A stretch of 48,324 bases of DNA from Armatimonas rosea (GTDB taxonomy: Bacteria; Armatimonadota; Armatimonadia; Armatimonadales; Armatimonadaceae). Of the stretch, positions 9,546 to 48,029 are shown one piece after another. The position numbers and the translations under genes are program-made. The notes beneath the pieces are model-generated. The model was not told where the DNA came from and did not search any database. It saw only the letters and a program-made list of their open reading frames with translations. The stretch spans positions 1 through 48,324 of the forward strand of contig NZ_JACHGW010000012.1 of the NCBI RefSeq assembly GCF_014202505.1, given 5' to 3'. Every line of letters begins with the position of its first letter. The first letter of the stretch is position 1.

Positions 9546-9559
9546 GATCGTTTCCTTTC

Positions 9560-12500: not shown

Positions 12501-12667
12501 GAGGCTCCCGCCATGCGAGTCGTGATAGACATAGAAGGCATGTCGGTATTGGGCATCTGCTCCAGCCCGAGATGCTGGAAGGAAAATAACCCCGCCACGC
12601 AGAGAGAGAGAATCAGAACCGCCGCAAAAATGGGGCGTAAAACAGAGATTCTAGCGAGCCATTGCAT
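9560..12667 (-). CDS. RND efflux pump inner-membrane transporter (HAE1/AcrB type)
   Basis: A 1035-residue proton-driven transporter of AcrB length. It starts with MQWLARISVLRPIFAAVLILSL (TM1), followed by a large periplasmic porter loop. The TM4 motif has the paired Asp used for proton relay (LSVGIVIDDAILVLENI). The second half repeats the architecture, with GVVKKNSILQVDHANQLRAEG around TM10 holding the conserved Lys, and a last TM near 1000-1020. The divergent ends and MFP partner indicate drug/lipid-type efflux (HAE1) rather than metal efflux. The start overlaps the MFP gene by 17 bp (12651-12667), so translation is coupled. The OMF gene follows by 14 bp. Confidence 0.95.
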   Translation of the reverse strand: MQWLARISVLRPIFAAVLILSLCVAGLFSFQHLGLEQMPNTDMPSMSITTRMAGASSEEMDSSVTEQIEKQINTISGVDTVSSVSSEGISIVTVQFSLEKDSAVAFQEVQAKVNLALPSLPSSADQPTIQKMAPDSTPVLTFTLTAPGESIRNLTEYADKTLRPQIESVSGVGQATISGGQLRQINITLDPYRLRAYGLTALSVRNALSQQNVEAPGGSLDQGNTHISLQTEGRYRSIEALKSLVVARQDSQPIYLSDLATVTDGEKEASSIARLNGQSTILVQVQKQSGTNTVAVVDQIKERLESVKHLMPAGYSVQITQDQSIFINASVHTLEEHLVLGSLLAALVVLFFLRDWRSTIIAALAIPASIIATFLLMWAKGFTLNTITMLALTLSVGIVIDDAILVLENIVRFIHEKGMSPKEASIAATKEIGLAVLATTLSLVAIFLPVAFMSGIVGRVLTSFGLTMAFAILVSMLVAFTLTPMLTSRWLKAGGTTKKSHALNKNGLAHRIETKYAQLIHWALHHRPVVVIVCIATFLTSVPLIGLVNKEFLSSDDQSQFQVSIQAPTGTSLKATGELLNQVAEDIRKRIPDVRYAVVTVGSDSQGSANKGEIAVRINEIGQRKSKKSAFDIIDQVRKEIVPKYPKDLTITVSAPSAFGGGGAMPAIQYVLTGPDLKVLQKAADDLIAKAKQIPSVTDVSSSSSSGNPSAKIVIDRAKAADLGVSATDLASVVQIVAAGQTVSSYEEGGRRYDISARAQERYRTRVKDLNLFLVPSSKPEGSPVTLDQVTTVEESTAPAAINRLSRSRQVTLSINIKQGASQQDVLNQVDQAYKALHLGDQYQGQPGGMSKELGKTFVAFGTAVALSFIFIYLILAAQFESWVHPFTILVSLPLSVPFGLLALVVTGGSLNLNSLLGLLVLFGVVKKNSILQVDHANQLRAEGLQREDAIVQASQDRLRPILMTTIAFVAGMIPLVISTGVGSTTNRSVGYLIMGGQTLSLLLTLVATPVIYSLMDDLTQSVARLKARLAKSEG

Positions 12668-14243
12668 TGTTTTTCTTCTCCTGGTTGTTATCCGCTTTTA
12701 CGGAATCACCGTTTTTCAGGGTACGCTGCCCGAGCGTGACAACAATATCGCCTTCTTTCAAATCGGAGGAAGATACTTCGCCGACGCCGTCCTCGGAGTT
12801 GATGCTTATGGATTTCTCGATGGCCTTATTGTTTTCGATGACAAAGAAGATGTTTTTACCATCCTTCTTCAAGATGGCTTCCTTGGGAAACAGGACAACA
12901 CCCTGGCTCTTTTCCGTCGTGATCTTCCCTTGAGCAAACATATGCGGACGCAACACACCAGCTTTGTTATCCAGAGAGATTCGCACGGGGAATGTCCGAC
13001 TAGACGAGGAACCAGAGGGATAGATACGAACCACCTTCCCCGCAAATGTCTTTCCCGGATAGGCATCCACCGCGATAGCAACCGATTGTCCTACTTTTAC
13101 GTGACTCAGGGAGACACTGGGAACAGCGGGTTCAAAATACACACTGTCCATCGCCACGATACTGACAATGGGGTTGGTGACGGTGACGTTCTGTCCCGGC
13201 TGAGCGGTTCGAGAAGCGACTTTGCCCGCGAAAGGAGCACGAATGGCCGTATCAGCAACCGCTTGGCGTGCGGTGGTCAGCGCAGCGTTAGCACTATCAA
13301 TGCCAGCACGAGCGGAGGAAATATCGGCTTGCTTTACCGTGAGCTGGGTTTTGTTGGCCAGAGCTGTATCGAGAGATGCCTTCCGAACGGCATCCGTGGC
13401 TCGTCCTGCGGTCGCCTGCCGCAGTGCTTCCTCTGCCTGGTCGATCTGCAATTTTGCTTGGTCGATCTCCTGTTGACGGCTCCCTTTCAGCTGTAGCTCA
13501 ACCGTCGCCTTTGCTGCATTCAGGTTTGCTTGGGCCACATCGCGTGCTGTTCGATACTGATCAATCTCCGCTTGAGAGATCGCCCCCGCCGTAAAGAGTT
13601 TCTCACTACGAGTCAGATCCGCTTGAGCCTTGCGCAGGTTCGCTTCCGCTACCGACAAGCTCGCTTGGGTCTGGAGGCGCTCCTCTGGCCGTGCGCCTTC
13701 CTGTAAGGTCGAGAGCCGAGAGCGAGCACTAGCTAAGGCTGCCTCCGCGGAACGAACCTGCGCCTGTGAGACCGTCGTCTGTTGGTTGTACGTAGCGCGT
13801 GCAGAGGTGACATCCGCTTCCAGAGTCTTGCCTGCCTGCTGGTACGCTGCCTCCGCTTGCGTGAGCCTGGCGCGAGCAGAGTTGAGGCTCGCTTCCGCGG
13901 TGCGCACCTGTGCGAGAAGATCGGTGGCATCGATTCGAGCAATCACCTGTCCTGCTGCTACCGTATCACCTTCACGAACCGTGACTTCTAGGAGTTTGCC
14001 TCCCTGCTTTGCGGAGAGACTTACTTCTTGCAGGGCCATCAGAGACCCCGTCACGTTCAGTGACTTGGTCACCTCGCCACGGTGCGCCTTGGCCGTCACT
14101 ACAGGGGAGGGGGAATTGGCATTCTCTTTAGATCCACCGGGCGATTCAGGAGGCGATCCGCCCGGCTTGGGCATACATCCACTCATCAGCAGGAGTGCCC
14201 CACTACTGAAAGCAAGATGACGTGATAGCTGAACTGTCTTCAT
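12651..14243 (-). CDS. RND periplasmic adaptor (membrane fusion lipoprotein)
   Basis: A 530-residue adaptor, longer than the usual ~380. The N-terminus ends in the lipobox LMSGC, so Cys23 is probably lipidated. A biotinyl-lipoyl half (GGKLLEVTVREGDTVAAGQVIARID) leads into a very long helical hairpin (~115-305, Ala/Gln-rich) that explains the extra length. The second lipoyl half and barrel domains follow (IRAPFAGKVASRTAQPGQNV; GQSVAIAVDAYPGKTFAGKVVRIYP). It would bridge the RND transporter and the TolC-like channel. AGGAAGG directly precedes ATG 14243. A TetR-type operator lies 37-54 bp upstream. Confidence 0.93.
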   Translation of the reverse strand: MKTVQLSRHLAFSSGALLLMSGCMPKPGGSPPESPGGSKENANSPSPVVTAKAHRGEVTKSLNVTGSLMALQEVSLSAKQGGKLLEVTVREGDTVAAGQVIARIDATDLLAQVRTAEASLNSARARLTQAEAAYQQAGKTLEADVTSARATYNQQTTVSQAQVRSAEAALASARSRLSTLQEGARPEERLQTQASLSVAEANLRKAQADLTRSEKLFTAGAISQAEIDQYRTARDVAQANLNAAKATVELQLKGSRQQEIDQAKLQIDQAEEALRQATAGRATDAVRKASLDTALANKTQLTVKQADISSARAGIDSANAALTTARQAVADTAIRAPFAGKVASRTAQPGQNVTVTNPIVSIVAMDSVYFEPAVPSVSLSHVKVGQSVAIAVDAYPGKTFAGKVVRIYPSGSSSSRTFPVRISLDNKAGVLRPHMFAQGKITTEKSQGVVLFPKEAILKKDGKNIFFVIENNKAIEKSISINSEDGVGEVSSSDLKEGDIVVTLGQRTLKNGDSVKADNNQEKKNNAMAR

Positions 14244-33850: not shown

Positions 33851-36484
33851 GTGGATACTTGGCACTTCGAGCTACTTGGCGGCGTTCGCGCCTCCACTGC
33901 GTCGGTTCGAGTAGATGACCAGGTGGGCAAGAAACCTGGAGCTCTACTGGCCCTGCTCGCTCTCTCACCGGGACGCACCCGGTCCCGTGAGGAAGTCATT
34001 GATATCATCTGGCCCGAGGTGGACTTTGACGAGGCGCGCAACCGCTTTCGGCAGACCCTCTTTGTGCTCCGCAAGCAGCTGGAGCCTGCCGGGGTCGCGC
34101 CGGGAAGTGTGCTCTTTACAGACCGAACCCAAGTCGGAATTGCGGCGGGGCATACGAGCGATGTTGGGTTGTTCGAGCAAGCGTTGCGCAGTGCCGCTAT
34201 GACGACCGAGCCGGTTGTTCGTGCCCAGCACTTGCGCTCTGCCTTAGCGCTTTACAAAGGCGAGTTCGCGCCGGGTTTCTACTTGGACATACTGCTCACC
34301 GAGCGGGAGAGGCTCAATGCCCTAGCGCAGAGCGCACGAGAGCGCCTCGCCGAGCTGGAGGCCACGCAGAGTACGGAAGTGACGCTGCCCGCACCCGTTC
34401 TGCCTGTGCCGGTTCGGACGGAGAACCGCTTCTTTGGCCGTCAGTCCGAGCTTGAGCACCTGCAGCTCCTGCTTGAGGACTTCCGGCTCGTGACGCTTCT
34501 AGGGCCGGGGGGTACGGGAAAGACACGTCTCGCACAGGAGCTACAAGCTACCACGCCCAGCTCTCACTTTATCAGCCTGAGCTCACTACGAAACGGGACT
34601 AGTATTCCCGATGCCATTGTCAGTACCTTAGCTTTGCCCGACTCCACGGATACAGCGCTGGTGCGCCTGCGAGCTGCTTTTGCCGAAAAGTCGGCGCTGT
34701 TGATCTTAGACAACGTTGAGCAATTAGTTACCAGCGGCGGTGCGGAGGCAATCGCAAGTGTCTTAGAAGCTGTCCCCACGCTACGTCTGCTCGCGACATC
34801 ACGCATTCGCTTGGACTTGCCACAGGAGTCGGCTTGCCAGCTTTCACCGCTTCCTAAAGACGATGCTGTTGCGCTATTTGTGGACCGCGCCCGCCTGGCT
34901 AAATCTAGCTTTGTGCTGACCGATGAAAATGAAGAAGCTATTGCCGAACTGTGCAGGCGTCTTGATGGGCTGCCACTCGCCATCGAGCTTGCCGCCGCCC
35001 GCGCTGCGATCCTGACACCACAACAGATACTGGAGCGCCTTGCTCGCCGCTTCGATCTGCTATCAGACAAGCGCCGTGACCGAGAAGAGCGGCACACGAG
35101 CTTGCGGGCCGCGCTCGACTGGGGCTGGAGCCTGCTTGCCCCCGATGTCCAGCGCTTCTTCACCCAGCTCTGCATCTTTCGAGGGAGCTTCTCGCTCGAA
35201 GCCGCCGAAGCCATAACGGGAGAGTTTCTCGCCATTGACTACCTCCAGAGCCTCGCCGATGGCTCGTTTCTTGTGGCGGAGGGAGAGCGCTTTCGCCTGC
35301 TAGAAACCCTCAGAGAATATGGCCTGGAAAAACTCAGCAAAGACGATAGCGACACGCTCACCCAAAAACACGCCGATTACTTTATAGACTGGACGGCAGA
35401 AAGGAAGCTCCTGCTCAATGGGGCGCAGTTTGCCGAGATACTAGCGCTCTTTAAGCAGGAGCAAGATAACTTTATCGCGGCACTAGACCGAACCCTGATC
35501 TCTGATGCCAAGCGGGCGGTGGTTCTGTGCCTGAACGTGGCGCGTTTCTGGAACTTCTCCTACTGGCTTCACCCGGCCCTGAGCTACCTGCAGCAAGCAC
35601 TCGCCGCGACGGAGCGTGCGGAAATTCCAGCGGAGCAAGTGGCTCTGCTCCACTCTAACTTGGGGCTGGCCTATGAGTCACTTCAAATGGACTATCTTAG
35701 CGCACGAACCCATTACCAGAAGTACTACGACTTTAAACAAGGGCAGCTTAAAGAGCGGGAGGCCGCAGGCGACGATGACGCGACACTCTTCCCGATTCGG
35801 CGTGCCCTTGCGGGAACGGTACATAATCTGGGAACGAGCTACTGGTTTGCCAAAGACCTGGACGCCGCTCAGCGCCACTACAACGAGGCCCGTATTCTCA
35901 ATACGGCTATCGGCAACGATGCCTGGCGTGCATTCAATCTCTGTGGATTGTACCTGGTCGCTTGGACACGTGGCTACTCCGCAGAAGACCCGGAGGAGCA
36001 GGCGATCTACTTTGAGCAGGCACTGAGGTATGTTCAGGAGGGGGAGGCGATCTGCCGCGAGGTTCAGCAGGATTTCTATCTGTGTTACATGCTCTGTGGG
36101 CTTGCCCGTCTCTATCCGCTCTTGAATCAGCAGGAGCGTGGCCTGCCTGCTTTAAAAGAGGGCTTTGAGATCGCCTGCGCTCTGGAGCACCGGGTTTATG
36201 TTGTGGATTTTCTCTACTTCTACTACTGTCAGGCACTCCACGACAAGCGCTTCGAGGAAGCCACGCAGTTCTGGGGAGCTGCGGCAGGCTATGCAAAACA
36301 GTGGGATATTGTGGTTCCCCATGAAGATCGTCACCTGCGTCCCCAAGTCAATCTAACAGAGCTTCTGGGGCAGGAGCGCTACGACCTGCTCTATGAGGCG
36401 GGCTTCCACGCCTCTCTCGAATCCCTCCAGACCCTCGCCGCTCGGATTCACACGTCTCACGAGACGCAACGACTAGCCTACTGA
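33851..36484 (+). CDS. AfsR-like regulator: BTAD + NB-ARC ATPase + TPR (first)
   Basis: An 877-residue STAND-type regulator. The N-terminus (1-~165) has a winged-helix/OmpR-like part (FELLGGVRASTASVRVDD, SREEVIDIIWPEVDFDEARNRFRQTLFVLRKQL) and a BTAD bundle (LRSALALYKGEFAPGFYLD). The NB-ARC domain holds Walker A GPGGTGKT (218-225), Walker B LLILDNVEQLV, LLATSRIRL and GLPLAIELAAARA. The C-terminal ~400 residues are TPR-like helices (LHSNLGLAYESLQMDY, HNLGTSYWFAKDLDAAQRHYNEARIL). Such proteins activate specific promoters upon ATP and effector/phosphorylation input. GTG 33851 follows TAAAAT at leaderless distance. The next gene is a second member of the family, 23 bp downstream but with its own TATAAT. 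Confidence 0.9.
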   Translation: MDTWHFELLGGVRASTASVRVDDQVGKKPGALLALLALSPGRTRSREEVIDIIWPEVDFDEARNRFRQTLFVLRKQLEPAGVAPGSVLFTDRTQVGIAAGHTSDVGLFEQALRSAAMTTEPVVRAQHLRSALALYKGEFAPGFYLDILLTERERLNALAQSARERLAELEATQSTEVTLPAPVLPVPVRTENRFFGRQSELEHLQLLLEDFRLVTLLGPGGTGKTRLAQELQATTPSSHFISLSSLRNGTSIPDAIVSTLALPDSTDTALVRLRAAFAEKSALLILDNVEQLVTSGGAEAIASVLEAVPTLRLLATSRIRLDLPQESACQLSPLPKDDAVALFVDRARLAKSSFVLTDENEEAIAELCRRLDGLPLAIELAAARAAILTPQQILERLARRFDLLSDKRRDREERHTSLRAALDWGWSLLAPDVQRFFTQLCIFRGSFSLEAAEAITGEFLAIDYLQSLADGSFLVAEGERFRLLETLREYGLEKLSKDDSDTLTQKHADYFIDWTAERKLLLNGAQFAEILALFKQEQDNFIAALDRTLISDAKRAVVLCLNVARFWNFSYWLHPALSYLQQALAATERAEIPAEQVALLHSNLGLAYESLQMDYLSARTHYQKYYDFKQGQLKEREAAGDDDATLFPIRRALAGTVHNLGTSYWFAKDLDAAQRHYNEARILNTAIGNDAWRAFNLCGLYLVAWTRGYSAEDPEEQAIYFEQALRYVQEGEAICREVQQDFYLCYMLCGLARLYPLLNQQERGLPALKEGFEIACALEHRVYVVDFLYFYYCQALHDKRFEEATQFWGAAAGYAKQWDIVVPHEDRHLRPQVNLTELLGQERYDLLYEAGFHASLESLQTLAARIHTSHETQRLAY

Positions 36485-36507: not shown

Positions 36508-39342
36508 ATGGTACACCTGAGGCTCCTAGGGACCTTCCGTGCTCAGACCCAGGAGGGGCTCCCACTACGCTTCAGCCGCCGGAAATCAGAGGCACTCGTG
36601 GCCTTCCTCGCGCTCCATCCTGGCCCGCACTCCCGGGAGAAACTCGCCGGGCTCTTTGGGGGTGAAGGCACCGACGACGACACACGAAGGGCATTGCGTG
36701 TCGTTCTCACCGATGTGCGCAAAGCGCTGGGCGAGACGAGTCTCCAGGGCGACCGGGATACGCTGGAGCTATCCCCCGAGCTACGGGTACAGCTCGATAC
36801 GACGGCACTGGAGCGGCATCTGCGCCTAGGGGAGCTAGAGGCGGCGCTGGCCCTCTGCCAAGGCGAGCTTTTGGAGGGGATCTACGACGACTGGGTGCTG
36901 CCACTGCGCGAGCACTACCGGCGGCAGGTATGTGAGGCTCTAGAGAGCCATGTCGGGCGGCGACGAAGCGCGGGGGACTATGCCGGTGCGATTACCTCGG
37001 CCCAGCGGCTTCTCGCTCTGGACCCCGCCCATGAGCCTGCCCACCAGCATCTGATGGTTTGCTACGCCGCCTCGGGGGATCGACAGAGCGCTCTCGCCCA
37101 GTACGAGGCCTGCCGTGCGGCTCTGGAAAAGCGGCTCGGGACAGCTCCCTCGAAGGAGACTCAGGCACTCTGGCAGGAAGTTCAGAGACACGCTGAGGGC
37201 ACCACGGCGGCGGCACTGACCAACCTGCCCCGCCCCCTGACCAGCTTTATAGGGCGCGAAGAGGCCCTAGAGGAGATCGAGACCCTTCTCACTCAGGCGC
37301 GGCTCGTGACCCTCACGGGAATGGGGGGGCATGGGAAAACACGCCTCGCGATCCAGGCGGCTGAGGAGGGTAGCCACGCCTTCCCCGATGGCGTCTGGTG
37401 GGTGGAGCTCGCTTCGTTAACCGAGGAAGGACAGCTAGAGCAGGCAATTGCTCATGTCCTAGGGGTGAAGGAGCGGGGTGGGAAGCCGCTGCGGCTGCAG
37501 GTGGCACAGGCACTTAGCGAGAAGCGGCTCTTGCTGTTGCTGGACAACGCGGAGCATCTGCTTGCCGCCTGCGCCGACACGGTCGAGTACTTGCTGGCGC
37601 ACTGCCAAGGACTCACCGTTCTTACTACCAGCCGTGTCCGCCTCGGGGTGCCCGGTGAGACTGCCTGGGCGGTCCCCCCCCTCACCGTGCCGATACGCAC
37701 TGAGCTCAAGTATCTCAAGAAGAACGAATCTGTTCAGTTTTTTATCGAGCGAGGGCGCATAGGGGGGCTACAGCTGAGCGACGAGAACGCGGCGACCATC
37801 GCCACGCTCTGCCAGCGACTGGAGGGAATCCCTCTGGCATTGGAGCTAGCGGCGGCGCAACTACGTACCCAGAGCCTAGAGCAGCTCGCGAGCCGTATCC
37901 AGACCACCTTAGAGGCGCTGGTCTCCGACGATCCCACCCAAACGCCACGTCAGCGAACCCTCCATGCTCTGGTCGCGTGGAGCTATGCGCTCCTGAACCC
38001 GGTAGAGCAGGCGCTCTTCCGACGGCTTGCGGTCTTTGCGGGAAGTGGAGGGTTGGAGGCGGTGGCAGTGATCGCAAGCGGCTACGATACGCCTCACGAG
38101 ACACTCCTTCCCCAAACGACGGCCTCGGTGTGGGCGCTTCCCGTCACGGGTCTCCTCGTGACCCAACAGCTACTGGAGAGCCTCTCGGAGAAATCTCTCC
38201 TGCGACGTTTTCGGAGCGAGCAGGGAGTGCGCTATGGCATGCTGGAGACCCTGCGTGAGTTCGCCTTGGGAGTGCTACAAGACGAAAACGAGTGCGTGCC
38301 TCTACGAAAGCGCCATGCACAGTATTTCTCCGAGCAGCTTGCCCACGCGAGTGTGGATCTCTACACCGCACAAGAATCTGGGCTCTTTGCCCTGCTGGAG
38401 CAGGAGCTTCCCAATGTGCGCGAAGCACTGGCACACCAGCTGGAGACACCAGACTGGCTTTGCTCTGCCCCAATGCTCTCCACCCTACGGCGCTTCTGGC
38501 AGGTGCGAGGGTACTTCACCGAGGCGCGTTCGTGGCTAACCCGGCTCCTTGAGCACCCTGCTGCCCTGTCTCTCTCCGAGGAGCGGGGGGAGCTCTTACA
38601 CGGGCTGGGTGTACTACTGGCCCTGAGCGGTGAGCTCGAAACGGCACGGGAGTGGCTTGAGCAAGCCCAAGCGGTCTATGAGGCCTGCTCCGTTCCAGAG
38701 AAGCGGGCCATTGTCCTCAATAACCTTGGCAATATCGCCATGGACCAGCACGACCTAGCGACCGCACGTCCCCTCTTCGAGCAGGCACGGCTCTTGGCGG
38801 AGGAATCAGGGAGTGTGCGTGTCCAGAGCATGACCCTCAACAACCTCGGCACCTTCTTGAAGAGCTCTGGGAACTGGGCAGAGGCGCGGGTGGTTCTGGG
38901 CGAGAGCCTTCGGTTGTACGAGAGCCAGGGGAACCGACGCGGGATGGGAATCGTGCTCAGTAACCTGGGAGCAATCGCCCTCGATTTGCAGGACAACGTC
39001 GAGGCGCAGCAAAACTTCACCAGCGCTTTATTGATTCACTGTGAGGTGCAGGACCGCCGGGGGGCAATGATCTCCGTCATCAATTTAGCGACCTTAACCC
39101 GCCGTCAGCAGGACTGGGAAGTCACCGCGCTCCTACTGGGAACCATACAAACCACACTAGAGCAGCTTGCCATTCAGCTTGGCCCAGAGGCGCAAGCCGC
39201 CTACCAAGGGCTCCTCAATGACACCCGTCAGGCCTTGGGCGAGTCGCGCCTTGATGTTATCCTGGCTCAGGGCAGAGCGCTCTCAATGGAAGCGGCCATG
39301 GAGCAGATTCCATCCGCGCTACAGAGCCAAACGGCTTTGTAG
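36508..39342 (+). CDS. AfsR-like regulator: BTAD + NB-ARC ATPase + TPR (second)
   Basis: A 944-residue protein of the same architecture as its neighbour. The winged-helix part is VHLRLLGTFRAQTQEGLPLRFSRRKSEALVAFLAL, with TRRALRVVLTDVRKALG. The BTAD bundle (~90-240) contains YAGAITSAQRLLALDPAHEPAHQHLMVCYAASGDRQSAL. The NB-ARC domain has Walker A GMGGHGKT (271-278), RLLLLLDNAEHLL, LTTSRVRLGVP and IPLALELAAAQ. C-terminal TPRs are clear (IVLNNLGNIAMDQHDLATARPLFEQARLL, LNNLGTFLKSSGNWAEARVVLGESLRL). The two regulators are paralogous but clearly diverged. Its 3' end forms a terminator hairpin and overlaps the first SARP-type box for the repeat-protein gene. It is a prime candidate activator of the following genes. 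Confidence 0.92.
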   Translation: MVHLRLLGTFRAQTQEGLPLRFSRRKSEALVAFLALHPGPHSREKLAGLFGGEGTDDDTRRALRVVLTDVRKALGETSLQGDRDTLELSPELRVQLDTTALERHLRLGELEAALALCQGELLEGIYDDWVLPLREHYRRQVCEALESHVGRRRSAGDYAGAITSAQRLLALDPAHEPAHQHLMVCYAASGDRQSALAQYEACRAALEKRLGTAPSKETQALWQEVQRHAEGTTAAALTNLPRPLTSFIGREEALEEIETLLTQARLVTLTGMGGHGKTRLAIQAAEEGSHAFPDGVWWVELASLTEEGQLEQAIAHVLGVKERGGKPLRLQVAQALSEKRLLLLLDNAEHLLAACADTVEYLLAHCQGLTVLTTSRVRLGVPGETAWAVPPLTVPIRTELKYLKKNESVQFFIERGRIGGLQLSDENAATIATLCQRLEGIPLALELAAAQLRTQSLEQLASRIQTTLEALVSDDPTQTPRQRTLHALVAWSYALLNPVEQALFRRLAVFAGSGGLEAVAVIASGYDTPHETLLPQTTASVWALPVTGLLVTQQLLESLSEKSLLRRFRSEQGVRYGMLETLREFALGVLQDENECVPLRKRHAQYFSEQLAHASVDLYTAQESGLFALLEQELPNVREALAHQLETPDWLCSAPMLSTLRRFWQVRGYFTEARSWLTRLLEHPAALSLSEERGELLHGLGVLLALSGELETAREWLEQAQAVYEACSVPEKRAIVLNNLGNIAMDQHDLATARPLFEQARLLAEESGSVRVQSMTLNNLGTFLKSSGNWAEARVVLGESLRLYESQGNRRGMGIVLSNLGAIALDLQDNVEAQQNFTSALLIHCEVQDRRGAMISVINLATLTRRQQDWEVTALLLGTIQTTLEQLAIQLGPEAQAAYQGLLNDTRQALGESRLDVILAQGRALSMEAAMEQIPSALQSQTAL

Positions 39343-39349
39343 CGCTTTT
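39316..39349 (+). terminator. Terminator overlapping the end of the second regulator gene
   Basis: GCGCTACAGAGCC-AAAC-GGCTTTGTAGCGC forms a 13-bp stem (one G-U pair) with a 4-nt loop, followed by TTTT. It spans the stop codon at 39340-39342. The right arm is also the first half of the 11-bp direct repeat described next. Confidence 0.7.
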
Positions 39350-39370
39350 GTAGCGCTTGCTCCTTAGAAT
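39337..39370 (+). promoter_or_regulatory. SARP-type promoter box for repeat protein 1
   Basis: TTGTAGCGCTT occurs twice in direct succession (39338-39348 region and 39349-39358 region, period exactly 11 bp). The second TGTAGCGC ends 8 bp before TAGAAT (39365-39370). SARP activators bind direct repeats with an 11-bp period, the promoter-proximal one 8 bp from the -10. The regulator genes immediately upstream carry the matching DNA-binding domain. The overlap with the terminator is a caution. Confidence 0.6.
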
Positions 39371-39420
39371 GGTTTTCGTAAGCTAAATCAACTCCCTTAT
39401 CGGAAAGGAAAACGAAAACC

Positions 39421-39603
39421 ATGAACACCAACATCATCAAGACCAACGCAACCAAGGGCGCTGGCATCAACCACAACGAGTCCACGCTTCGCACTTCTGC
39501 TGGCAAGGGATCTGGCACGAATCATAACGAGAGTGGGCTCCGCACTTCTGCAACGAAGGGAACGGGCGGCAATCACAACGAGAGCGTGCTCAAGGTGAAG
39601 TAG
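39421..39603 (+). CDS. Small tandem-repeat protein 1 (3-4 NHNES repeats)
   Basis: A 60-residue protein of unknown family made almost wholly of a 17-residue repeat. The layout is MNTNIIKTNATKGAGI, then NHNESTLRTSAGKGSGT, NHNESGLRTSATKGTGG and NHNESVLKVK. The N-terminus is itself a degenerate unit (NTNIIKT aligns with HNESTLRT), so there is no separate leader or signal peptide. It is basic, hydrophilic, lacks Cys, Trp and Tyr, and is likely cytoplasmic or exported without a standard signal. GGAAAGGA precedes ATG by about 11 bases. Position and style recall AfsS of Streptomyces, a ~63-residue repeat protein made under AfsR control, but the repeat sequence is different. Confidence 0.8.
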   Translation: MNTNIIKTNATKGAGINHNESTLRTSAGKGSGTNHNESGLRTSATKGTGGNHNESVLKVK

Positions 39604-39623
39604 CCCCCATCGCCGAGACGGTG

Positions 39624-39667
39624 CCCCCCCAATCATAGGACTGAACTGCCCCCATGATTGAGGGGGG
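39624..39667 (+). terminator. Hairpin after repeat protein 1 gene
   Basis: CCCCCCAATCAT (from 39625) pairs with ATGATTGAGGGGGG (39654-39667) apart from one bulged A, around a 17-nt loop. It begins about 20 bp after the stop. No T-run follows, so it is a probable but non-canonical terminator that would separate the two repeat-protein genes. Confidence 0.55.
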
Positions 39668-39728
39668 TGAGGAACGAGGCAGGGGCGTGGGGCAAATATA
39701 ACACAACATTTTCCCGCGCCTCGCCAAA

Positions 39729-39761
39729 ACTAACGGTGGACTAACGGAGGCTTCGTAAGAT
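39729..39761 (+). promoter_or_regulatory. SARP-type promoter box for repeat protein 2
   Basis: ACTAACGGTGG (39729-39739) and ACTAACGGAGG (39740-39750) are direct repeats with an 11-bp period, differing at one base. ACTAACGG of the second copy ends 8 bp before TAAGAT (39756-39761). Geometry is the same as in the box for repeat protein 1, but the sequence differs, which suggests a different activator or different affinity. The start codon is 100 bp downstream. Confidence 0.65.
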
Positions 39762-39860
39762 GGTGTCATAGCAAGCAGCCAAGCACAAAACAAAAATAAT
39801 AAAGCAAGGCGCTTGAAAAAAGACCAGGCGGAGACGCCCGGAAACAAGGAAACCAAAACT

Positions 39861-40247
39861 ATGAACACCAACACCATCAAGACCAGTGCAACCAAGGCCT
39901 TCGCACGGAACCACAACGAGTCCACGCTACGCACCGCTGCTGCAAAAGCCTATGTTCGGAACCACAACGAGAGCGCACTCCGCACCGTTGCTGCAAAGGG
40001 CATCAGCATCAACCACAACGAGTCCACGCTACGCACCGCTGCTGGCAAGGGGCTAAGCCTCAATCATAACGAGAGCGCGATTAAGACCACGGCTGCCAAG
40101 GGTATCAGCCTCAATCACAACGAGTCTACGCTACGCACCGCTGCTGCAAAAGCCTATAATCGGAACCACAACGAGTCCACGCTACGCACCGTAGCTGCAA
40201 AGGGCGTGAGTCTCAACCACAACGAGAGCGCGATCAAGGCGAAGTAG
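39861..40247 (+). CDS. Small tandem-repeat protein 2 (8 NHNES-type repeats)
   Basis: A 128-residue paralogue of the 60-residue protein. After a degenerate first unit (MNTNTIKTSATKAFAR) come six full units and a final half, all beginning NHNES with an exact 17-residue (51-bp) period. The consensus is NHNES-[TA]-[LI]-[RK]-T-x-[AG]-[AG]-K-[AG]-x-x-x, and the end is NHNESAIKAK. Two unit types (with KAYxR and with KGxSL) partly alternate. I use ATG 39861, because MNTNTIKT matches the paralogue and AAGGAAA precedes it; an ATG at 39813 is less likely. There is no signal peptide and no Cys. Possible roles: AfsS-like regulator, repeat precursor peptide, or metal/nucleic acid binding. None is proven. 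Confidence 0.8.
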   Translation: MNTNTIKTSATKAFARNHNESTLRTAAAKAYVRNHNESALRTVAAKGISINHNESTLRTAAGKGLSLNHNESAIKTTAAKGISLNHNESTLRTAAAKAYNRNHNESTLRTVAAKGVSLNHNESAIKAK

Positions 40248-40267
40248 CCTCCCCTGCTCGTACCCTT

Positions 40268-40299
40268 GCCACTCCCTTCCCGGAGCCGGAAGGAGTGGC
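40268..40299 (+). terminator. Hairpin after repeat protein 2 gene
   Basis: GCCACTCCCTTCC (40268-40280) pairs with GGAAGGAGTGGC (40288-40299), allowing one bulged C, around a 7-nt loop. No T-run follows. It may protect the 3' end or attenuate transcription into the small secreted-protein gene 33 bp later. Confidence 0.5.
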
Positions 40300-40332
40300 G
40301 GGTCGAGGTGAAAACGGAAACGGACGAAACGG

Positions 40333-40530
40333 ATGAAAACTCTCTTACTGATTGCCCTACTTTTGATGACGACGACACCTAGCTTTGCCGACGACTCCAA
40401 CTCCGAGCGTCCCGGCTGGATGCGCGAGGGCAAGGTCGTTCAGGCCCGCGAGCTCTCTGTTGCCTTCCAGGGCTTTGTCTATCTCACCTGCTACGCCACC
40501 TCCCAGAGCGCCGTAAAGAAAAACGCATGA
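40333..40530 (+). CDS. Small secreted protein
   Basis: A 65-residue protein with a good signal peptide (MKTLLLIALLLMTTTPSFA, cleavage before DDSNSER). The mature ~46 residues read ERPGWMREGKVVQARELS and then GFVYLTCYATSQ, with a single Cys. I recognise no family. GGAAACGGA-type purine-rich sequence precedes the ATG. Its stop overlaps the TPR gene start (ATGA at 40527), so it belongs to the TPR-MFS operon. It could be an exported peptide, a partner of the exporter, or a small periplasmic factor. Confidence 0.65.
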   Translation: MKTLLLIALLLMTTTPSFADDSNSERPGWMREGKVVQARELSVAFQGFVYLTCYATSQSAVKKNA

Positions 40531-41606
40531 GCACAATAGAGAGCGCCATCGCACTTTTTGAAGATGCCAGTGCCGCCCGTGAGCAGGGCAGCATTGCCCA
40601 AGCCACGACACTCTGTGCGCAGAGCTTGGCGCTCTTTGAACAGCTTGAGGGCGACTCTCCCGACACCGCCAACGTTCTCCTCACCCTCGGCGAGCTTCAG
40701 CAGGCGCTTGGCGACTACGAAGAAGCAAAAGAGTCGGCGACACGGGCGGAGACGATTTTAGACACCCTGAAAGAGAGCTTTACAGGGCCTGTTGCCGTAG
40801 GGCTGCGCGTACAGGCACTGGGGCAAATCGGCAATGTGCTTCGCCACCAGGGGAGGTACAGCGAGGCCAAGTGCTTTCTCGGTAAGGCCCTTGAGCTGGC
40901 CCGCGATGGCTTGGGTGAGAGCGACGAGAACACGGCCTTTGCCCGCAACAATGTCGGGATGCTCTACAAGTACACTGCCCAGTTCGACGAGGCCGAGGAA
41001 CTCTACGGCACCGCACTCACCGCACTTGAGAAAGAGCTCGGGGAAGGGCACCCCAACACCGCCACGCTCTACCATAACCTTGGGGGACTAGAGCACGCCC
41101 GCGGAAATTACGAAAAAGGCGAGCCACTGGCAAGACGAGCCTGGGAGATTAACCGAGAGCACCTCGGCGAGAGCCATCCCACCACCCTCGCCGATGCCGC
41201 CGCTTGGGCAGGGCTCCTCGATGGATTGGAGCGCTACAACGAATCCGAGCCAATCTACCGGCGAGTCCTAGAGACCTTCGAAGCCCTCTACGGCCCCGAG
41301 CACTACGAGGTAGTCGTTGCACTCAACAACCTCGCCAATGTGCGTTATGCGTTGGGGGATGTGGCAGAAGCCGAGTCTCTCATGCGCCGTGCTCTGACCG
41401 CCAAGGAAAGCTCCCTCGGCCCCGAGCACCCCGACACGGCACTCACGGCAAGCAACCTGGGCGTCATCCTCCAGAGCAGGGGCCAGACCGACGAGGCACG
41501 CACCCTCTTTACCCGCGCCCTCAACACGTTCCAGAATACCGTCGGCAAAGACCACCCTAAGACTCAGATGGCACGCGAAAACCTTGCAAGTGTAGGACTT
41601 TCGTGA
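40527..41606 (+). CDS. Tetratricopeptide-repeat protein (kinesin-light-chain type)
   Basis: A 359-residue protein made of about eight 42-residue TPRs, with the kinesin-light-chain-like pattern: LGQIGNVLRHQGRYSEAKCFLGKALEL, ARNNVGMLYKYTAQFDEAEELYGTALTALEKELGEGHPNTATLYHNLGGLEHARGNYEKGEPLARRAWEI. No catalytic domain, signal peptide or membrane segment is visible. This repeat type often accompanies STAND regulators and may bind peptides or proteins. It overlaps the small secreted-protein gene by 4 bp and the MFS gene by 4 bp (GTGA), so the three are translated together. Confidence 0.9.
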   Translation: MSTIESAIALFEDASAAREQGSIAQATTLCAQSLALFEQLEGDSPDTANVLLTLGELQQALGDYEEAKESATRAETILDTLKESFTGPVAVGLRVQALGQIGNVLRHQGRYSEAKCFLGKALELARDGLGESDENTAFARNNVGMLYKYTAQFDEAEELYGTALTALEKELGEGHPNTATLYHNLGGLEHARGNYEKGEPLARRAWEINREHLGESHPTTLADAAAWAGLLDGLERYNESEPIYRRVLETFEALYGPEHYEVVVALNNLANVRYALGDVAEAESLMRRALTAKESSLGPEHPDTALTASNLGVILQSRGQTDEARTLFTRALNTFQNTVGKDHPKTQMARENLASVGLS

Positions 41607-42817
41607 CCGTCTTTCGAGCCCTGCGAAACCGAACCTTCGCCGCACTCTGGCTAGGGCAGACCCTCTCCCGTATCGGGGACTTCACCTATGAGCTCGCACT
41701 GGCATGGTGGGTCCTCAAGAAAACCGGCTCACCACAGGCAACCAGCCTCGTGCTGATCTTTGCCCTCACCCCCTCAGTTCTCTTTTCACTTCTCGGAGGA
41801 GTCGCCGCGGATAAGTTCGCGCGTGCCTGGCTGATGCTCGGTTCAGATATAGCCCGTGGAGTCGTCGCGCTGGCCGTGGCCCTGCTGAGCGCCTCGGGAA
41901 GGCTAGAGGTGTCGCATCTCTACGTGGCGAGCCTGCTCTTTGGGTTTCTGGATGCCTTCTTTCAGCCCGCCTACGCCGCCCTCGTTCCCCAGCTCATCTC
42001 CGAGGACGAGCGCCCTTCCGCCACAGCACTTACGGGCATCAGTATGAGCCTCGGACGAATCGCCGGGCCTGCTATCGGTGCTGGGCTGGTGGCAGCCCTA
42101 GGTCCAACGTTAGCATTCAGTATAAACGCCGTGACGTTCTTCGTCTCCAGTCTTCTCCTGCTTCCTGCCCTGGGAGTTCGCCTTCCCAAAGCCGCGATTC
42201 CCCATGAGGCTCCCCTCTGGCAGTCACTCGGAGAAGGCTTTCGCACGGTTCGTCGCCAGCGCTGGCTGTGGGTAAGCATCGTGCTCTTTGCCTTGACCAA
42301 TATCACCCTGGTCGCACCGTATTGTGTCTGTATGCCCTATCTGGTGACGCAAGTGCGCCACGCGGGAGTGGGCACTCTGGGAATACTCTACGCCGCATTT
42401 CCACTGGGTTACCTGCTCGGGGGTCTCTGGCTTGGGCGACTGCCGCGGCTACGGCGACGTGGTCTGGTGATGCATGGAGCGATGGCTCTAGCAGCGACCA
42501 TGCTTGCGCTCCTGGGAACACGTCTGCCACTCCCCGTTCTCCTCGTGGCAGCTCTGATAAACGGGGTGGCGCTGGAGGCCAATAACCTGGCCTGGATGGG
42601 ACTCCTCCAAGAGAAGATCCCTCCCGAGCAACAGGGGCGTGTCTTTAGTATCGATGCGATGGGGTCGCTCGCACTCCTGCCTCTTGGGCTCGCGCTGGTA
42701 GGCTGGGGGGCAGTGGTGCTTGGGCCAGATAAGATCTTTCTCCTTGGTGGCAGCGTGACCACCCTGCTCTCTCTGTTCGTACTAGTAAGCGTGCCCTCCC
42801 TACGTCAACTGGATTGA
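41603..42817 (+). CDS. MFS transporter (probable exporter)
   Basis: A 404-residue permease with 12 predicted TM helices. The N-terminal RNRTFAALWLGQTLSRIGDFTYELALAWWV is typical of the MFS_3/enterobactin-exporter-like and macrolide-exporter groups. GGVAADKFARAWLMLGSDIARG contains the loop 2-3 motif (G-x-x-A-D-x-x-x-R region). The second half starts about residue 215 with RQRWLWVSIVLFALTNI. GTG 41603 overlaps the TPR stop. Its partners suggest export of a small product of this locus, but no biosynthetic enzyme is present. Confidence 0.9.
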   Translation: MTVFRALRNRTFAALWLGQTLSRIGDFTYELALAWWVLKKTGSPQATSLVLIFALTPSVLFSLLGGVAADKFARAWLMLGSDIARGVVALAVALLSASGRLEVSHLYVASLLFGFLDAFFQPAYAALVPQLISEDERPSATALTGISMSLGRIAGPAIGAGLVAALGPTLAFSINAVTFFVSSLLLLPALGVRLPKAAIPHEAPLWQSLGEGFRTVRRQRWLWVSIVLFALTNITLVAPYCVCMPYLVTQVRHAGVGTLGILYAAFPLGYLLGGLWLGRLPRLRRRGLVMHGAMALAATMLALLGTRLPLPVLLVAALINGVALEANNLAWMGLLQEKIPPEQQGRVFSIDAMGSLALLPLGLALVGWGAVVLGPDKIFLLGGSVTTLLSLFVLVSVPSLRQLD

Positions 42818-43971: not shown

Positions 43972-44029
43972 GATCCAGAGATCTGGGGAGCCCAAAAATA
44001 ACTCGTTGCCCCCGTCCGGAAACTCAATA

Positions 44030-46648
44030 ATGCCTCACCACTTTCGAACAAAACTTGCTACCACTCTGACACTTGTTGGGCTGGCAGGATCATTTATTCC
44101 CGTTGGCACTGCTGAACCCATGCCGAAGGCCAAGCGTGACGACTATCAAAAGTTTGTCGCACCGCTCCTCGCAAAATCCTGCATCGCTTGTCATGGTCCG
44201 AAAAAGTCTAATGCGGGACTTCGAATCGACCAACTGGATCCAAATCTTCTCACGGGTAGGGACGTCGATCGGTGGATCGAGATTTACGACGTCCTCAGCA
44301 AACGCGAGATGCCGCCGGCGGGCGAACCGAACTACCATCTCAAGGACGAGGACAGAGCCCGGATCATCGAATGGTTGGGGAAGGAAATGCAAAAAGTCTC
44401 CCAGACCCGGAGAAATGCCGGAGGTCATGGTTCCTTCCGCCGCATGGCGAACTACGAATACAACCACGCCCTGCAGGACTTGCTGGATCTCAACCTTCAG
44501 TTTACCGAGGCACTCCCGCCCGAAAACACGTCCGAAGATGGCTTCAAAAACAGCTCAAAGTATCTCCAGATGTCGGCGACGCAGCTCGAGACCTATCGTG
44601 AGATAGCCATCGAGGCCCTACAAAAAGCAACCGTCGAAGGAGACCGCCCTCAGGTGGTGACCTGGCAGATCCCGATGCAAGAGGTGCTGGACAAAGCCGC
44701 CGCCTTGAAACAGAAACCCATCCCTCCCAAAAACTCCGCGAATGCCAAAGACATCCGGTATACCCACGTTCTCAACAAGGACACTGGTGAGGGCTTCTCC
44801 TATAACTGGGCCTACTACGTTATCTTAGATGGTGAAGCCCGCCAAGGGATCTGGAATCTCAAACCTGACAAAACCACCTCCGCCATCCCGCCTGTCTCCA
44901 ACGTCGTCGCGGTTCTCCCGCCTTCCCGACAGTTCCACCTCGATCTGGGAAACTCGGTTCCAGAGGAAGGCATCTTACGGGTCCGGATTCGCGTCGGTGC
45001 AAGCGAACGCCAGCCTGGGCAGTCGGCAAACCTCAGATTGGTTTTCGGCTTTCAAAGCAACAATGAGGGAAGAGGGTCCGTCATCGTCAGCGAGCGGGAC
45101 GTTGAAGTGACCGCTTCCACCAAGGATCCGAAGTTTGTCACCTTTGATGTTCCGCTCGCTGGGCTGCCGCGAAACCCCTTCCGAAAAACGCACGAAATCG
45201 GAAGCTTTCCCAACTGCACGGAGTATCTCGAAATCCACAACATTTCCTCGACTGGAAAAGGAGGAAAGAATCCGCCGGTAAATCTAGAAATCGACTACGT
45301 CGAAGTGGAAGCCGGGCTCTACGAGACATGGCCGCCAAAATCCCACACCGCCATCTTCTTCGATAGCCCAAATCGGAAGGATGAAAACGCGTATGTCCGG
45401 GAGATTCTGAAGCGCTTCATGACGCGGGCGTGGCGACGTCCAATTACAGATAGCGACATCGCGGCCTACCACCAGCTCTTCAGAAAATATCGCCCTGGCT
45501 TCTCCACTTTCCAAGAAACCGTGATAGAGGTCCTCGCCACCGTGTTGGCCTCACCCGAGTTCCTTTATCTCGTTCAAACCGAATCCCCCAAACCTTCTCA
45601 GACTCGGACAGTCAGCGACCTGGAGCTGGCCAATCGTCTCTCCTTCTTTCTCTGGTCCAGCATTCCGGACGCCCAGCTCCTCGACCTCGCCTTTTCTGGC
45701 AAACTCAAATCGCCGAAGACTCTGGATTCCCAAATCCAGCGCATGTTGGCTGATCCCAAATCAAAGCGATTCACCCGGCACTTTGTCCAACAGTGGCTGG
45801 GCCTTGAGGCCTTGGACAACGTCGTCGTCGATCCATTGAAGTTCCCGATCTACGACGAAGCGTTCCAGAAGAACCTCATCGCGGAGCCGCATGCCTTCTT
45901 CGACCACGTCCTGCGTAACAATCGCAGCATTGTGGATTTCCTCCAATCGGACTACCTCGTCATCAACGAACCCCTGGCGCAACACTACGGAATCCCCGGC
46001 GTGACCGGGCAGGAATTTCGGAAAGTCCCCATTGATGCCCGAGTCAACCGCGGCGGCCTTCTCACCACTGCGGCCGTCCTCACCATGACTTCCACCGGGG
46101 TGGATTCCAATCCGCTCAAACGCGGCGTTTGGCTCCTGGAAAGAATGCTCCACGACCCGCCACCACCGCCGCCGCCCAATGTTCCCCAGGTGGATCTCAC
46201 CGACCCCCGGATTCTCAAAATGACCCCGAAGGAGCGGATGGCCGACCATCGCAACAATGCCGCCTGCCGGTCCTGTCACGCCAAGATCGATCCCTGGGGG
46301 ATTTCGTTGGAAAACTTCGATGCCATCGGGCGCTTCCGCACCACCATCAATGACAAGCCGGTTGATGCCACCGCCGTCCTCTACAACAACAAAGCACTGG
46401 AAGGAGTGACGGGATTAAAAAGCTACCTCATGGCCGACCGGCAGGATCAATTCAGAAAAGCGATGGTCCACAAATTGAGCACCTACGCTCTAGGCCGCCC
46501 GATGTCGTTTGCCGACCGCAGTGAGCTAGATAGAATAGCAGCAGAACTCAAAAAACGTGGAAACGGTCTGAAGGACCTCGTTTCCATCATTATTCACAGC
46601 CGTTTGTTCCGTGAAAAGGTCGTGGGGGGAAAAGAACATGAGAAATAA
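44030..46648 (+). CDS. DUF1592-type cytochrome c protein (Planctomycete PSCyt family)
   Basis: About 872 residues from ATG 44030 (GGAAAC before it); an in-frame TTG at 44006 is less likely. A signal-like segment (TLTLVGLAGSFIPVGTA) precedes a haem motif CIACHGPKKSNAGLRID. Then come the DUF1587/1595/1592/1588/1585 blocks: HGSFRRMANYEYNHALQDLLDL, FMTRAWRRPITDSDIAAYHQLF, ELANRLSFFLWSSIPDAQLLDLA, QWLGLEALDNV, RGGLLTTAAVLTMTSTGVDSNPLKRGVWLLERML. A second CRSCHAKIDPWGISLENFD lies near the end. These are large extracytoplasmic proteins of unknown function, usually next to DUF1552 genes. The stop overlaps the DUF1552 start by 11 bp. Confidence 0.92.
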   Translation: MPHHFRTKLATTLTLVGLAGSFIPVGTAEPMPKAKRDDYQKFVAPLLAKSCIACHGPKKSNAGLRIDQLDPNLLTGRDVDRWIEIYDVLSKREMPPAGEPNYHLKDEDRARIIEWLGKEMQKVSQTRRNAGGHGSFRRMANYEYNHALQDLLDLNLQFTEALPPENTSEDGFKNSSKYLQMSATQLETYREIAIEALQKATVEGDRPQVVTWQIPMQEVLDKAAALKQKPIPPKNSANAKDIRYTHVLNKDTGEGFSYNWAYYVILDGEARQGIWNLKPDKTTSAIPPVSNVVAVLPPSRQFHLDLGNSVPEEGILRVRIRVGASERQPGQSANLRLVFGFQSNNEGRGSVIVSERDVEVTASTKDPKFVTFDVPLAGLPRNPFRKTHEIGSFPNCTEYLEIHNISSTGKGGKNPPVNLEIDYVEVEAGLYETWPPKSHTAIFFDSPNRKDENAYVREILKRFMTRAWRRPITDSDIAAYHQLFRKYRPGFSTFQETVIEVLATVLASPEFLYLVQTESPKPSQTRTVSDLELANRLSFFLWSSIPDAQLLDLAFSGKLKSPKTLDSQIQRMLADPKSKRFTRHFVQQWLGLEALDNVVVDPLKFPIYDEAFQKNLIAEPHAFFDHVLRNNRSIVDFLQSDYLVINEPLAQHYGIPGVTGQEFRKVPIDARVNRGGLLTTAAVLTMTSTGVDSNPLKRGVWLLERMLHDPPPPPPPNVPQVDLTDPRILKMTPKERMADHRNNAACRSCHAKIDPWGISLENFDAIGRFRTTINDKPVDATAVLYNNKALEGVTGLKSYLMADRQDQFRKAMVHKLSTYALGRPMSFADRSELDRIAAELKKRGNGLKDLVSIIIHSRLFREKVVGGKEHEK

Positions 46649-48029
46649 TCGAGTCGTGATGAAACGACGAACCTTCCTTAAAGGTGCTGGTATTGACCTC
46701 GCGCTGCCATGGATGGAGACCTTCGCCGCCAAGGGTGAGTCACAGGATAAGCTGGCCCGCTTTGTGAGCATCTACCATCCGGACGGAGTGGGCCTGCCCC
46801 GGCAGGATGACCCGGCTTGGAAGGACTGGAGCTGGTTCCCGCAGGGAGGCGAACGCGACTTCCGCCTCACCAAGGTCCTCGATGTCCTCGAACCGCTACG
46901 CAACGACATCACGATCTACTCCGGCCTCTCCCATCCCGCTTCGCGCAAAGTCCACGGTCACTCCAATGCGGACCAATACCTCACGGGTGCCGCCACCGGA
47001 AGCGAGGGGCCGTATAAAAACACGATCTCACTCGACCAAGTCATCGCCGAAGAGTTTGGCCGCCACACGCGCCACTCTTCGCTCGTTCTCTCTACCAATG
47101 CGGGAACCGGCGCTCCGCGCGCCACACATACTTCCTCCTTCGACCAACAAGGCCGTCCCATTCCTTCTATCAGCCGTCCCAAAGAGATCTTCGACCTCCT
47201 CTTCGTCACCCAAGGAAAGGAAACCCGCGACAAACTCGCCCGCAGCAAAAGTGCGCTCGATCTCCTCATCGCCAACGTCAACACGCTCAATCGCAAGCTC
47301 TCCAGCCACGACCGCGAGACGCTCCAACAATACCTCGATGCAGTCCGCGACACCGAAATTAAACTGCACAGGGCCGAAAAATGGATCGATACCGCCCTTC
47401 CCGAAGTCGATGCCCGCCACTTGAATCTTGAGGTCACCGTCCGCGACAGCCGCGCCTACGTGCAGACCATCTACGAGCTCATCTACCTCGCCTTCCTCAG
47501 CGATTCGACCCGTGTCGCCACCTACATGATGGGCAGGGAAAACTCTGGAGGCCCGCAGGATTTGCTGGCCCGGGCCGTCGGCCTCAACAACGCCCACGGC
47601 CTGACTCATGAGGTCAAGAAACCCAACGGCTGGCGCAACCTGGGAATCTACAACCGCTTTCAAGCGGAGGAATTTGGTCGCTTCCTCCAAAAGCTCAAAG
47701 ACACCCCCGAACCCAACGGAAACGGCACCCTGCTCGACAACACCTTCGCCATGCATGGGTCCGCTTCGAGTAGTTTCCATCTCTCGCGGAACTACCCCAT
47801 CATCTCGGCTGGCGGCAAAAACCTTGGCTTCAAAAACGGCCGCTACCTCAAGTTCTCCAGAGACGAAAACCTTCAGTCCAACGCCGGAATCGATGACGAC
47901 TCAGGTTGGAGAAGCGACATCGAGCATTATGAACTGCCGCTCGCCCACCTCTTCGTCACCATCCTGAAACGCGTGGGTATAGAGACCAACGAGTTTGCCG
48001 GCTACAAGGGTACTCTTGATCGGGTCTAG
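46638..48029 (+). CDS. DUF1552 family protein
   Basis: About 463 residues from ATG 46638 (GGGGAAAAG upstream), overlapping the previous gene by 11 bp. The N-terminus has a Tat-like start, VVMKRRTFLKGAG, but the hydrophobic stretch that follows is short (IDLALPWMETFA). The DUF1552 core is clear: RFVSIYHPDGVGLP, KVLDVLEPLRNDITIYSGLSHPASRKVHGHSNADQYLTGA, SLDQVIAEEFGRHTRHSSLVLST and HLFVTILKRVGIETNEFAGYKGTLD. Function is unknown; the DUF1592-type and DUF1552 genes are routinely paired in Planctomycetes, Verrucomicrobia and Armatimonadota. Synonymous codon choice looks different from the rest of the window. Confidence 0.92.
   Translation: MRNNRVVMKRRTFLKGAGIDLALPWMETFAAKGESQDKLARFVSIYHPDGVGLPRQDDPAWKDWSWFPQGGERDFRLTKVLDVLEPLRNDITIYSGLSHPASRKVHGHSNADQYLTGAATGSEGPYKNTISLDQVIAEEFGRHTRHSSLVLSTNAGTGAPRATHTSSFDQQGRPIPSISRPKEIFDLLFVTQGKETRDKLARSKSALDLLIANVNTLNRKLSSHDRETLQQYLDAVRDTEIKLHRAEKWIDTALPEVDARHLNLEVTVRDSRAYVQTIYELIYLAFLSDSTRVATYMMGRENSGGPQDLLARAVGLNNAHGLTHEVKKPNGWRNLGIYNRFQAEEFGRFLQKLKDTPEPNGNGTLLDNTFAMHGSASSSFHLSRNYPIISAGGKNLGFKNGRYLKFSRDENLQSNAGIDDDSGWRSDIEHYELPLAHLFVTILKRVGIETNEFAGYKGTLDRV

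Follow-up and report, generated by a model that had tools for sequence, protein, structure and literature searches.

The 48,324-nucleotide stretch of DNA analysed here (the window) carries two large regulator genes followed by two small repeat-peptide genes, and all features described below lie on the plus strand. S1 (33851..36484) encodes a large SARP-like regulator of 877 aa with a winged helix, a short BTAD, NB-ARC and TPR, and S2 (36508..39342) a large SARP regulator of 944 aa with a winged helix, a full BTAD, NB-ARC and TPR; the two look co-transcribed because only 23 bp lie between them. The 3' end of S2 forms a terminator-like hairpin of 13 pairs followed by TTTT (39316..39345). The first half-site of box 1 (39337..39358) serves as the 3' arm of this hairpin; box 1 consists of two copies of TTGTAGCGCTT (39337-39347 and 39348-39358) followed by the -10-like hexamer TAGAAT (39365..39370), 50 nt ahead of the ATG of P1. 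The translation of P1 (39421..39603) is a 60-aa repeat peptide with three NHNES units. Box 2 (39729..39750) consists of two copies of ACTAACGG(T/A)GG, namely ACTAACGGTGG (39729-39739) and ACTAACGGAGG (39740-39750), and precedes the -10-like hexamer TAAGAT (39756..39761) and P2 (39861..40247), whose translation of 128 aa holds seven NHNES units with a 17-aa period. P2 is a paralogue of P1, and no Pfam or NCBIfam model matched the NHN-repeat peptides at curated cut-off. Downstream lie a 65-aa ORF with a signal-peptide-like start that matched no family (40333..40530), a TPR protein gene assigned by domain match and locus comparison (40527..41606), which in other phyla is the partner gene of NHN peptides, and an MFS transporter gene assigned by domain match (41603..42817), 50 % identical to the MFS at the same place in Litorilinea.

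In S2, PF03704 (BTAD) follows the N-terminal winged helix with an E-value of 2.5e-21 (77 bits), which is the arrangement that defines a SARP. In S1, a whole-genome search returned PF03704 at E 3.4e-4 as a partial alignment covering profile positions 2-74 of 146 only, and a protein scan at E 0.01 did not list BTAD and gave Trans_reg_C 20.9 bits, below its cut-off. The S1 N-terminus matched AfsR chains at E 2e-4, and AfsR chains matched a profile of S1, S2 and two relatives at E 2.6e-10 across both domains. NB-ARC exceeds its cut-off in both proteins, as does TPR in S2 (S1 reaches 25.7 bits for TPR_12, below the cut-off of 30.1), and it is the combination of NB-ARC and TPR that marks large SARPs of the AfsR type. 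The genome as a whole contains 28 S2-like matches.

Register and rarity of the two tandem repeats

The two repeats of 11-bp period that the original prediction had placed before TAGAAT and TAAGAT are present in the sequence as described. Its distance of 8 bp between the conserved block of the second copy and the hexamer is correct for ACTAACGG, whereas TTGTAGCG ends 9 nt away; counted from a core common to both boxes, TA(G/A)CG (39351-39355 in box 1 and 39742-39746 in box 2), the second copy is 9 nt from the hexamer in each. Because this core is shared, the repeats are less different than had been held, although the three letters ahead of it are wholly different (TTG in box 1, GAC/AAC in box 2).

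Allowing one mismatch at most, the window contains no tandem 11-mers other than boxes 1 and 2, and periods of 10 to 25 other than 11 gave no such tandem repeat there. First-order Markov copies of the window contain 0.3 tandem 11-mers each, and sampling the genome elsewhere, in 14 stretches of 20 kb, gave four in 280 kb. The expectation for the two intergenic gaps is 0.005, with a probability of 1.4e-5 for two or more. A further 1.6 Mb of the genome contained 24 tandem 11-mers, against 39 10-mers and 33 12-mers; 11-mers are thus no commoner than their neighbours, and it is the place of the two boxes, not the period alone, that is special.

OmpR/PhoB-type boxes are also 11-bp direct repeats, bound by winged helices near the -35. 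SARP operators, in the accessible parts of two papers, are described for actinomycetes (PMC10936776, PMC10972967) as direct repeats spaced by 11 or 22 bp, the 3' copy standing 8 bp from the -10; the SARP forms a side-by-side dimer, and sigma region 4 rests on this dimer and not in the -35 groove (PMC10936776). Boxes 1 and 2 have the same layout, with two direct 11-bp repeats about 8 bp from a -10 and no good -35, and no sigma-70 promoter with a -35 was found in 39200-40600. As far as those texts extend, AfsR of Streptomyces coelicolor is, like S1 and S2, a large SARP with NB-ARC-type and TPR domains, and in the afs box of afsS, as in boxes 1 and 2, two 11-bp direct repeats replace the -35, the 3' one lying about 8 bp from the -10 (PMC10936776, PMC10972967). 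The AfsR repeat is given as CGTT(T/C)ATCGNN, and its (T/C)ATCG can be laid on TA(G/A)CG (PMC10972967). Unlike AfsR, the window system lies outside Actinomycetota, and the afsS -10 in the same texts is CACTGT, whereas those here are TA-rich. The secondary operator of PimR and the sites of other cluster-situated SARPs are likewise direct heptamer repeats near the target promoter, with the regulator gene near its target; in the portion of the source at hand, however, the targets serve antibiotic synthesis, whereas here they are repeat peptides and there is no PimR-like 10-bp unit (PMC10972967). Literature searches combining SARP with Chloroflexi or Armatimonadetes found no paper, those on response regulators found nothing, and the peptide motif gave unrelated matches only.

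A box 1 footprint in Litorilinea

Among the matches listed by a scan for paired NHN(E/Q) codons was contig L117, part of a MAG of Litorilinea aerophila (Chloroflexota), with the gene order of the window: SARP, nine-repeat NHNET peptide, TPR and MFS. Directly 3' of the SARP stop lies TTGTAGCGCTTTTGTAGCGATT-GGTGGA-TAGAAT, identical to the window at 21/22 positions of the box, 6/6 of the -10 and 2/6 of the spacer, compared with 13/25 in the 25 nt upstream and 19/50 in the leader; the -10 stands 51 nt from the ATG. Over the best-matching 34 nt the two loci agree at 29 positions, whereas 100 shuffles never exceeded 21. The N-terminal part of S2 is 51-53 % identical to the Litorilinea SARP, whose recognition helix, DARRALRVVLTDLRKNL, resembles that of S2 (DTRRALRVVLTDVRKAL) and is unlike that of S1 (EARNRFRQTLFVLRKQL). 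Since this S2 orthologue is the sole SARP-domain match in 20 kb of L117 and presents the same recognition-helix face, S2 most likely reads box 1, very probably the operator-promoter of P1.

We also compared 32 NHN-peptide starts, comprising P1, P2 and 30 others chosen by eye. At all three with a SARP neighbour (P1, P2 and the L117 gene), a tandem 11-mer matching at 10-11 of 11 positions is present, while the other 29, in loci of at most 8 kb without a SARP match, reach at most 8 of 11. Among these 29 is L096, the other peptide locus in that Litorilinea genome. Apart from the known Litorilinea genome, no NHN arrays were found in 400 Chloroflexota genomes, and the window was the only place with them among 291 genomes from its own phylum. 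Plasmid tblastn with P2 gave no match; with S2 it gave 348 records, all below 60 % identity, which were set aside.

Related boxes in this and other genomes

At up to three mismatches, box 1 occurs in 3/46 genomes of Caldilineales, the order of Litorilinea (control 0): in Litorilinea itself, at two sites in G727, one of them with three tandem copies, and at one in G729. In this order the box is also present away from any SARP terminator. We then used a generic pattern blind to gene context, WSTARCG-N4-WSTARCG-N9-TANNNT, with reversed-pattern controls. It matched in 5/291 genomes of the window's phylum (the two window boxes and five sites in four other genomes, these with TGTAACG in both copies) and in 5/150 genomes from the class to which Litorilinea belongs (the known site and five new ones), counts not above the controls (5 new sites versus 8, and 5 versus 4). 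In 9 of the 10 new sites, the variable letters are the same in both copies, where 1 in 8 would be expected for each (P 7e-8), and a SARP gene lies within 200 bp of three of the ten (P < 1e-6, assuming 28 SARPs per genome placed at random). In L235 the SARP stop codon falls inside the box, and in L236 the box is 156 bp past the end of the SARP ORF, each box being followed by a secreted-protein-like ORF; in L243 the box sits at the start of a divergent SARP, 47 nt ahead of a secreted-protein-like ORF. The L244 box is made of one TAGCG and one TAACG copy and lies 1.7 kb downstream of the end of a SARP whose helix is S2-like. No SARP was found on the contigs of L232, L233 and L234 (TGTAACG), and the only further box that the generic pattern gave in 20 Chloroflexota stretches with S2-like SARPs was a divergent one, next to a SARP of G727.

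Within the same genome, an ORF comparison covering 1.6 Mb, five 20-kb stretches and the window placed a box of this type between -60 and +500 of the stop in 3/22 SARP-like ORFs versus 4/667 other ORFs (P 0.0009), a rough denominator because some of the 22 match the HMM outside the DNA-binding domain; without the window the figure is 2/21 (P 0.012), and behind 19 of the 22 no such box was found. Scanning these parts of the genome for further boxes, as suggested with the original prediction, yielded relatives behind two other SARP-like ORFs, but neither box 1 nor box 2 itself recurs in the 6.3-Mb genome at up to three mismatches. At C1:1069207, tandem GTGTAAGG copies and TATAGT stand 188 nt ahead of the next gene, which we take to be YebC-like, and the SARP behind this place (L154) has R at position 92 (AfsR numbering). 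C1:909001 is an S1-like SARP, for which the match to the S2 query spans only residues 11-137, surrounded by CTAACG boxes at 909021, 903658 and 910703. Each is 9 nt from a TA-hexamer and lies 23-46 nt ahead of an ORF that looks secreted or lipoprotein-like; two of these ORFs are paralogues, and the boxes are the closest counterpart of box 2. For the paralogue most similar to S1 (C1:267936-265303, 67 % N-terminal identity), no box passes the generic pattern; in its 3' flank TTACG-6-TTACG-9-TATTCT can be picked out by eye, to which we give no weight. Three places in this genome have exact 8-mers at an 11-bp distance ahead of a TA box; two of them look like DnaA boxes and were rejected as SARP boxes.

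The remaining generic-pattern sites, L245, L246 and L247, carry TCTARCG in the same geometry with no SARP on the stretches examined. They precede genes that we take to encode Hsp20, Hsp20 and ClpB, so that in Chloroflexota such boxes stand before Hsp20 at two genomic places and before ClpB. They are a different regulon sharing the geometry, and these three heat-shock boxes show that geometry alone is no proof of a SARP; non-SARP regulators may use it too. Box 1 alone might then belong to these SARPs. Box 2 would in that case be read by some other winged-helix protein, either an OmpR/PhoB-type response regulator or an activator of heat-shock genes, that likewise acts from 11-bp direct repeats ahead of a -10. 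OmpR-family response regulators do bind 11-bp direct repeats, the TCTARCG tandems keep the same 9-nt gap, and box 2 (ACTAACG) is one letter off TCTAACG. However, OmpR/PhoB-type response regulators have a receiver domain, and none was found among the 20 window proteins scanned, S1 and S2 included, though a distant gene might encode such a regulator; an S1-like SARP of this genome has CTAACG tandems on its flanks, and the gene behind box 2 is a paralogue of one that has a SARP box. We therefore regard a non-SARP reader of box 2 as unlikely.

Proposed pairing of regulators and boxes

We consider it probable that both boxes are operator-promoters of large (AfsR-type) SARPs, with S2 acting on P1 via box 1 and S1 most likely on P2 via box 2. 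Two SARP molecules, presumably a homodimer, would occupy the two 11-bp repeats as neighbours, substituting for a -35 element, and activate transcription by holding RNA polymerase over the -10 hexamer that starts 9 nt past TA(G/A)CG. S2 would drive P1 through the TAGCG core of box 1 and S1, most likely, P2 through the TAACG core of box 2, and the NB-ARC and TPR parts presumably gate this activity, as in AfsR. Judged from sequence, the SARP-type promoters of the original prediction are strongly supported for box 1 by the Litorilinea footprint beside an S2 orthologue, and fairly for box 2 by register, gap and the CTAACG analogues.

The one-to-one pairing that had also been proposed is supported for S2 and box 1 by the Litorilinea block with its single SARP; for S1 and box 2 it is plausible. 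At helix positions 88 and 92, S1 has Q and V and S2 has V and D, where AfsR has T and R, and the repeats differ accordingly. D or N at position 92 goes with TAGCG in S2, Litorilinea, L243 and L173 (L244 is mixed, with one copy of two), and S or A goes with TAACG in L235, L236 and C1:909001. S1, with V at this position, would face the TAACG of box 2, and this small set of related sequences, not phylogenetically independent and noticed post hoc, points to that pairing. That an S1-like SARP of this genome has CTAACG boxes around it also makes it plausible that S1 reads box 2, so that the assignment draws on elimination, the position-92 correlation and an in-genome analogue. P2 thus probably has in box 2 an operator-promoter of the SARP type, for which S1 is the first candidate. 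S2 alone might instead read both boxes, or both SARPs might read both, as the common core would allow and as the mixed box 1.7 kb from an S2-like SARP at L244 could suggest; but the letters before the core share nothing between the boxes, S1 and S2 differ at both helix positions, and the two copies match each other in most boxes, and we find such shared reading improbable.

Beyond the window, we suggest tentatively, and with some doubt, a portable cassette of regulator, operator and secreted or peptide target that exists outside Actinomycetota. In it, the 3' end of the SARP gene would bear the tandem 11-bp operator belonging to that SARP. Position 92 would set the core (D/N for TAGCG, S/A/V for TAACG), S1/box 2 and S2/box 1 would be orthogonal circuits that arose by duplication, and box 1 would double as terminator of its regulator. 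A box kept across phyla together with regulator and target is ready for a bench test, and the recurring order of regulator, box and target could be used to predict targets for many large SARP genes, such as the 28 S2-like matches here.

The overlap of box 1 with a terminator hairpin, against which the original prediction had cautioned, is real: copy 1 supplies the 3' arm of the 13-pair stem at 39316-39345 (-23.8 kcal/mol, z -7.2), whose tail is formed by the Ts at the copy junction, so that the S2 terminator would reuse the first half-site of the operator. Unlike the afs box, as far as it is described in the sources above, box 1 thereby overlaps its regulator's own stop codon and terminator. 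That box 1 is a mere by-product of this terminator, a duplicated 3' arm and no operator, is suggested by the place of its first copy but is very improbable, given that the hairpin includes neither the second copy nor the -10, that both are kept in Litorilinea despite a much weaker hairpin, and that the same box stands away from any SARP terminator in Caldilineales. With the window hairpin strong and that at the same place in Litorilinea weaker (-10.9, z -2.9), dual use is clear once and weak a second time; among 14 other boxes folded, three had z below -2 (L247 -3.4, L232 -2.5 and L172 -2.2).

NHN(E/Q)-repeat peptide genes and their TPR neighbour

Across the loci recovered by pattern scan, homologues of the TPR gene of the window adjoin NHN(E/Q)-repeat peptide genes in several phyla, as they do in the window itself (peptide and TPR genes, 39421-41606). 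By our own reading, 27 scan loci were classed as true peptide loci and the remaining 91 served as the comparison set; among the matches listed, the TPR homologue occurs at 11 of the former (L043, L047, L049, L058, L060, L084, L096, L098, L100, L106 and L117) and at none of the latter. The peptides themselves fall into no Pfam or NCBIfam family, and no RiPP maturase was seen within the window block that holds their genes.

SARP-like proteins and CTAACG boxes in the A. rosea genome

Searching with the large SARP regulator S2 returned 28 S2-like matches in the A. rosea genome. Many of its SARP-like proteins align only to approximately residues 4-143 of the 231-residue query, as if they carried a short BTAD like that of S1, the large SARP-like regulator of the window. 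An S1-like SARP gene (C1:906410-909001) is surrounded by three CTAACG tandem boxes (C1:903658, 909021 and 910703), each with a secreted- or lipoprotein-like ORF 3' of it, of which two are paralogues of 855-859 aa.

Tandem boxes before heat-shock genes in Chloroflexota

TCTA(A/G)CG tandems, spaced 11 bp apart and lying 9 nt 5' of a TA-hexamer, were found in Chloroflexota at three places (L245, 300-332; L246, 9722-9754; L247, 3741-3773), ahead of genes that we take to encode Hsp20, Hsp20 and ClpB, respectively. These tandems possibly point to a heat-shock activator with SARP-like geometry.

Other gene sets in the window

The window also contains an RND efflux set (8034-14243, minus strand; HlyD-type adaptor, AcrB-type pump and outer-membrane factor) and a planctomycete-type protein pair (44006-48029, plus strand), comprising a cytochrome/DUF1592 family member and a DUF1552 (HXXSHH) protein.
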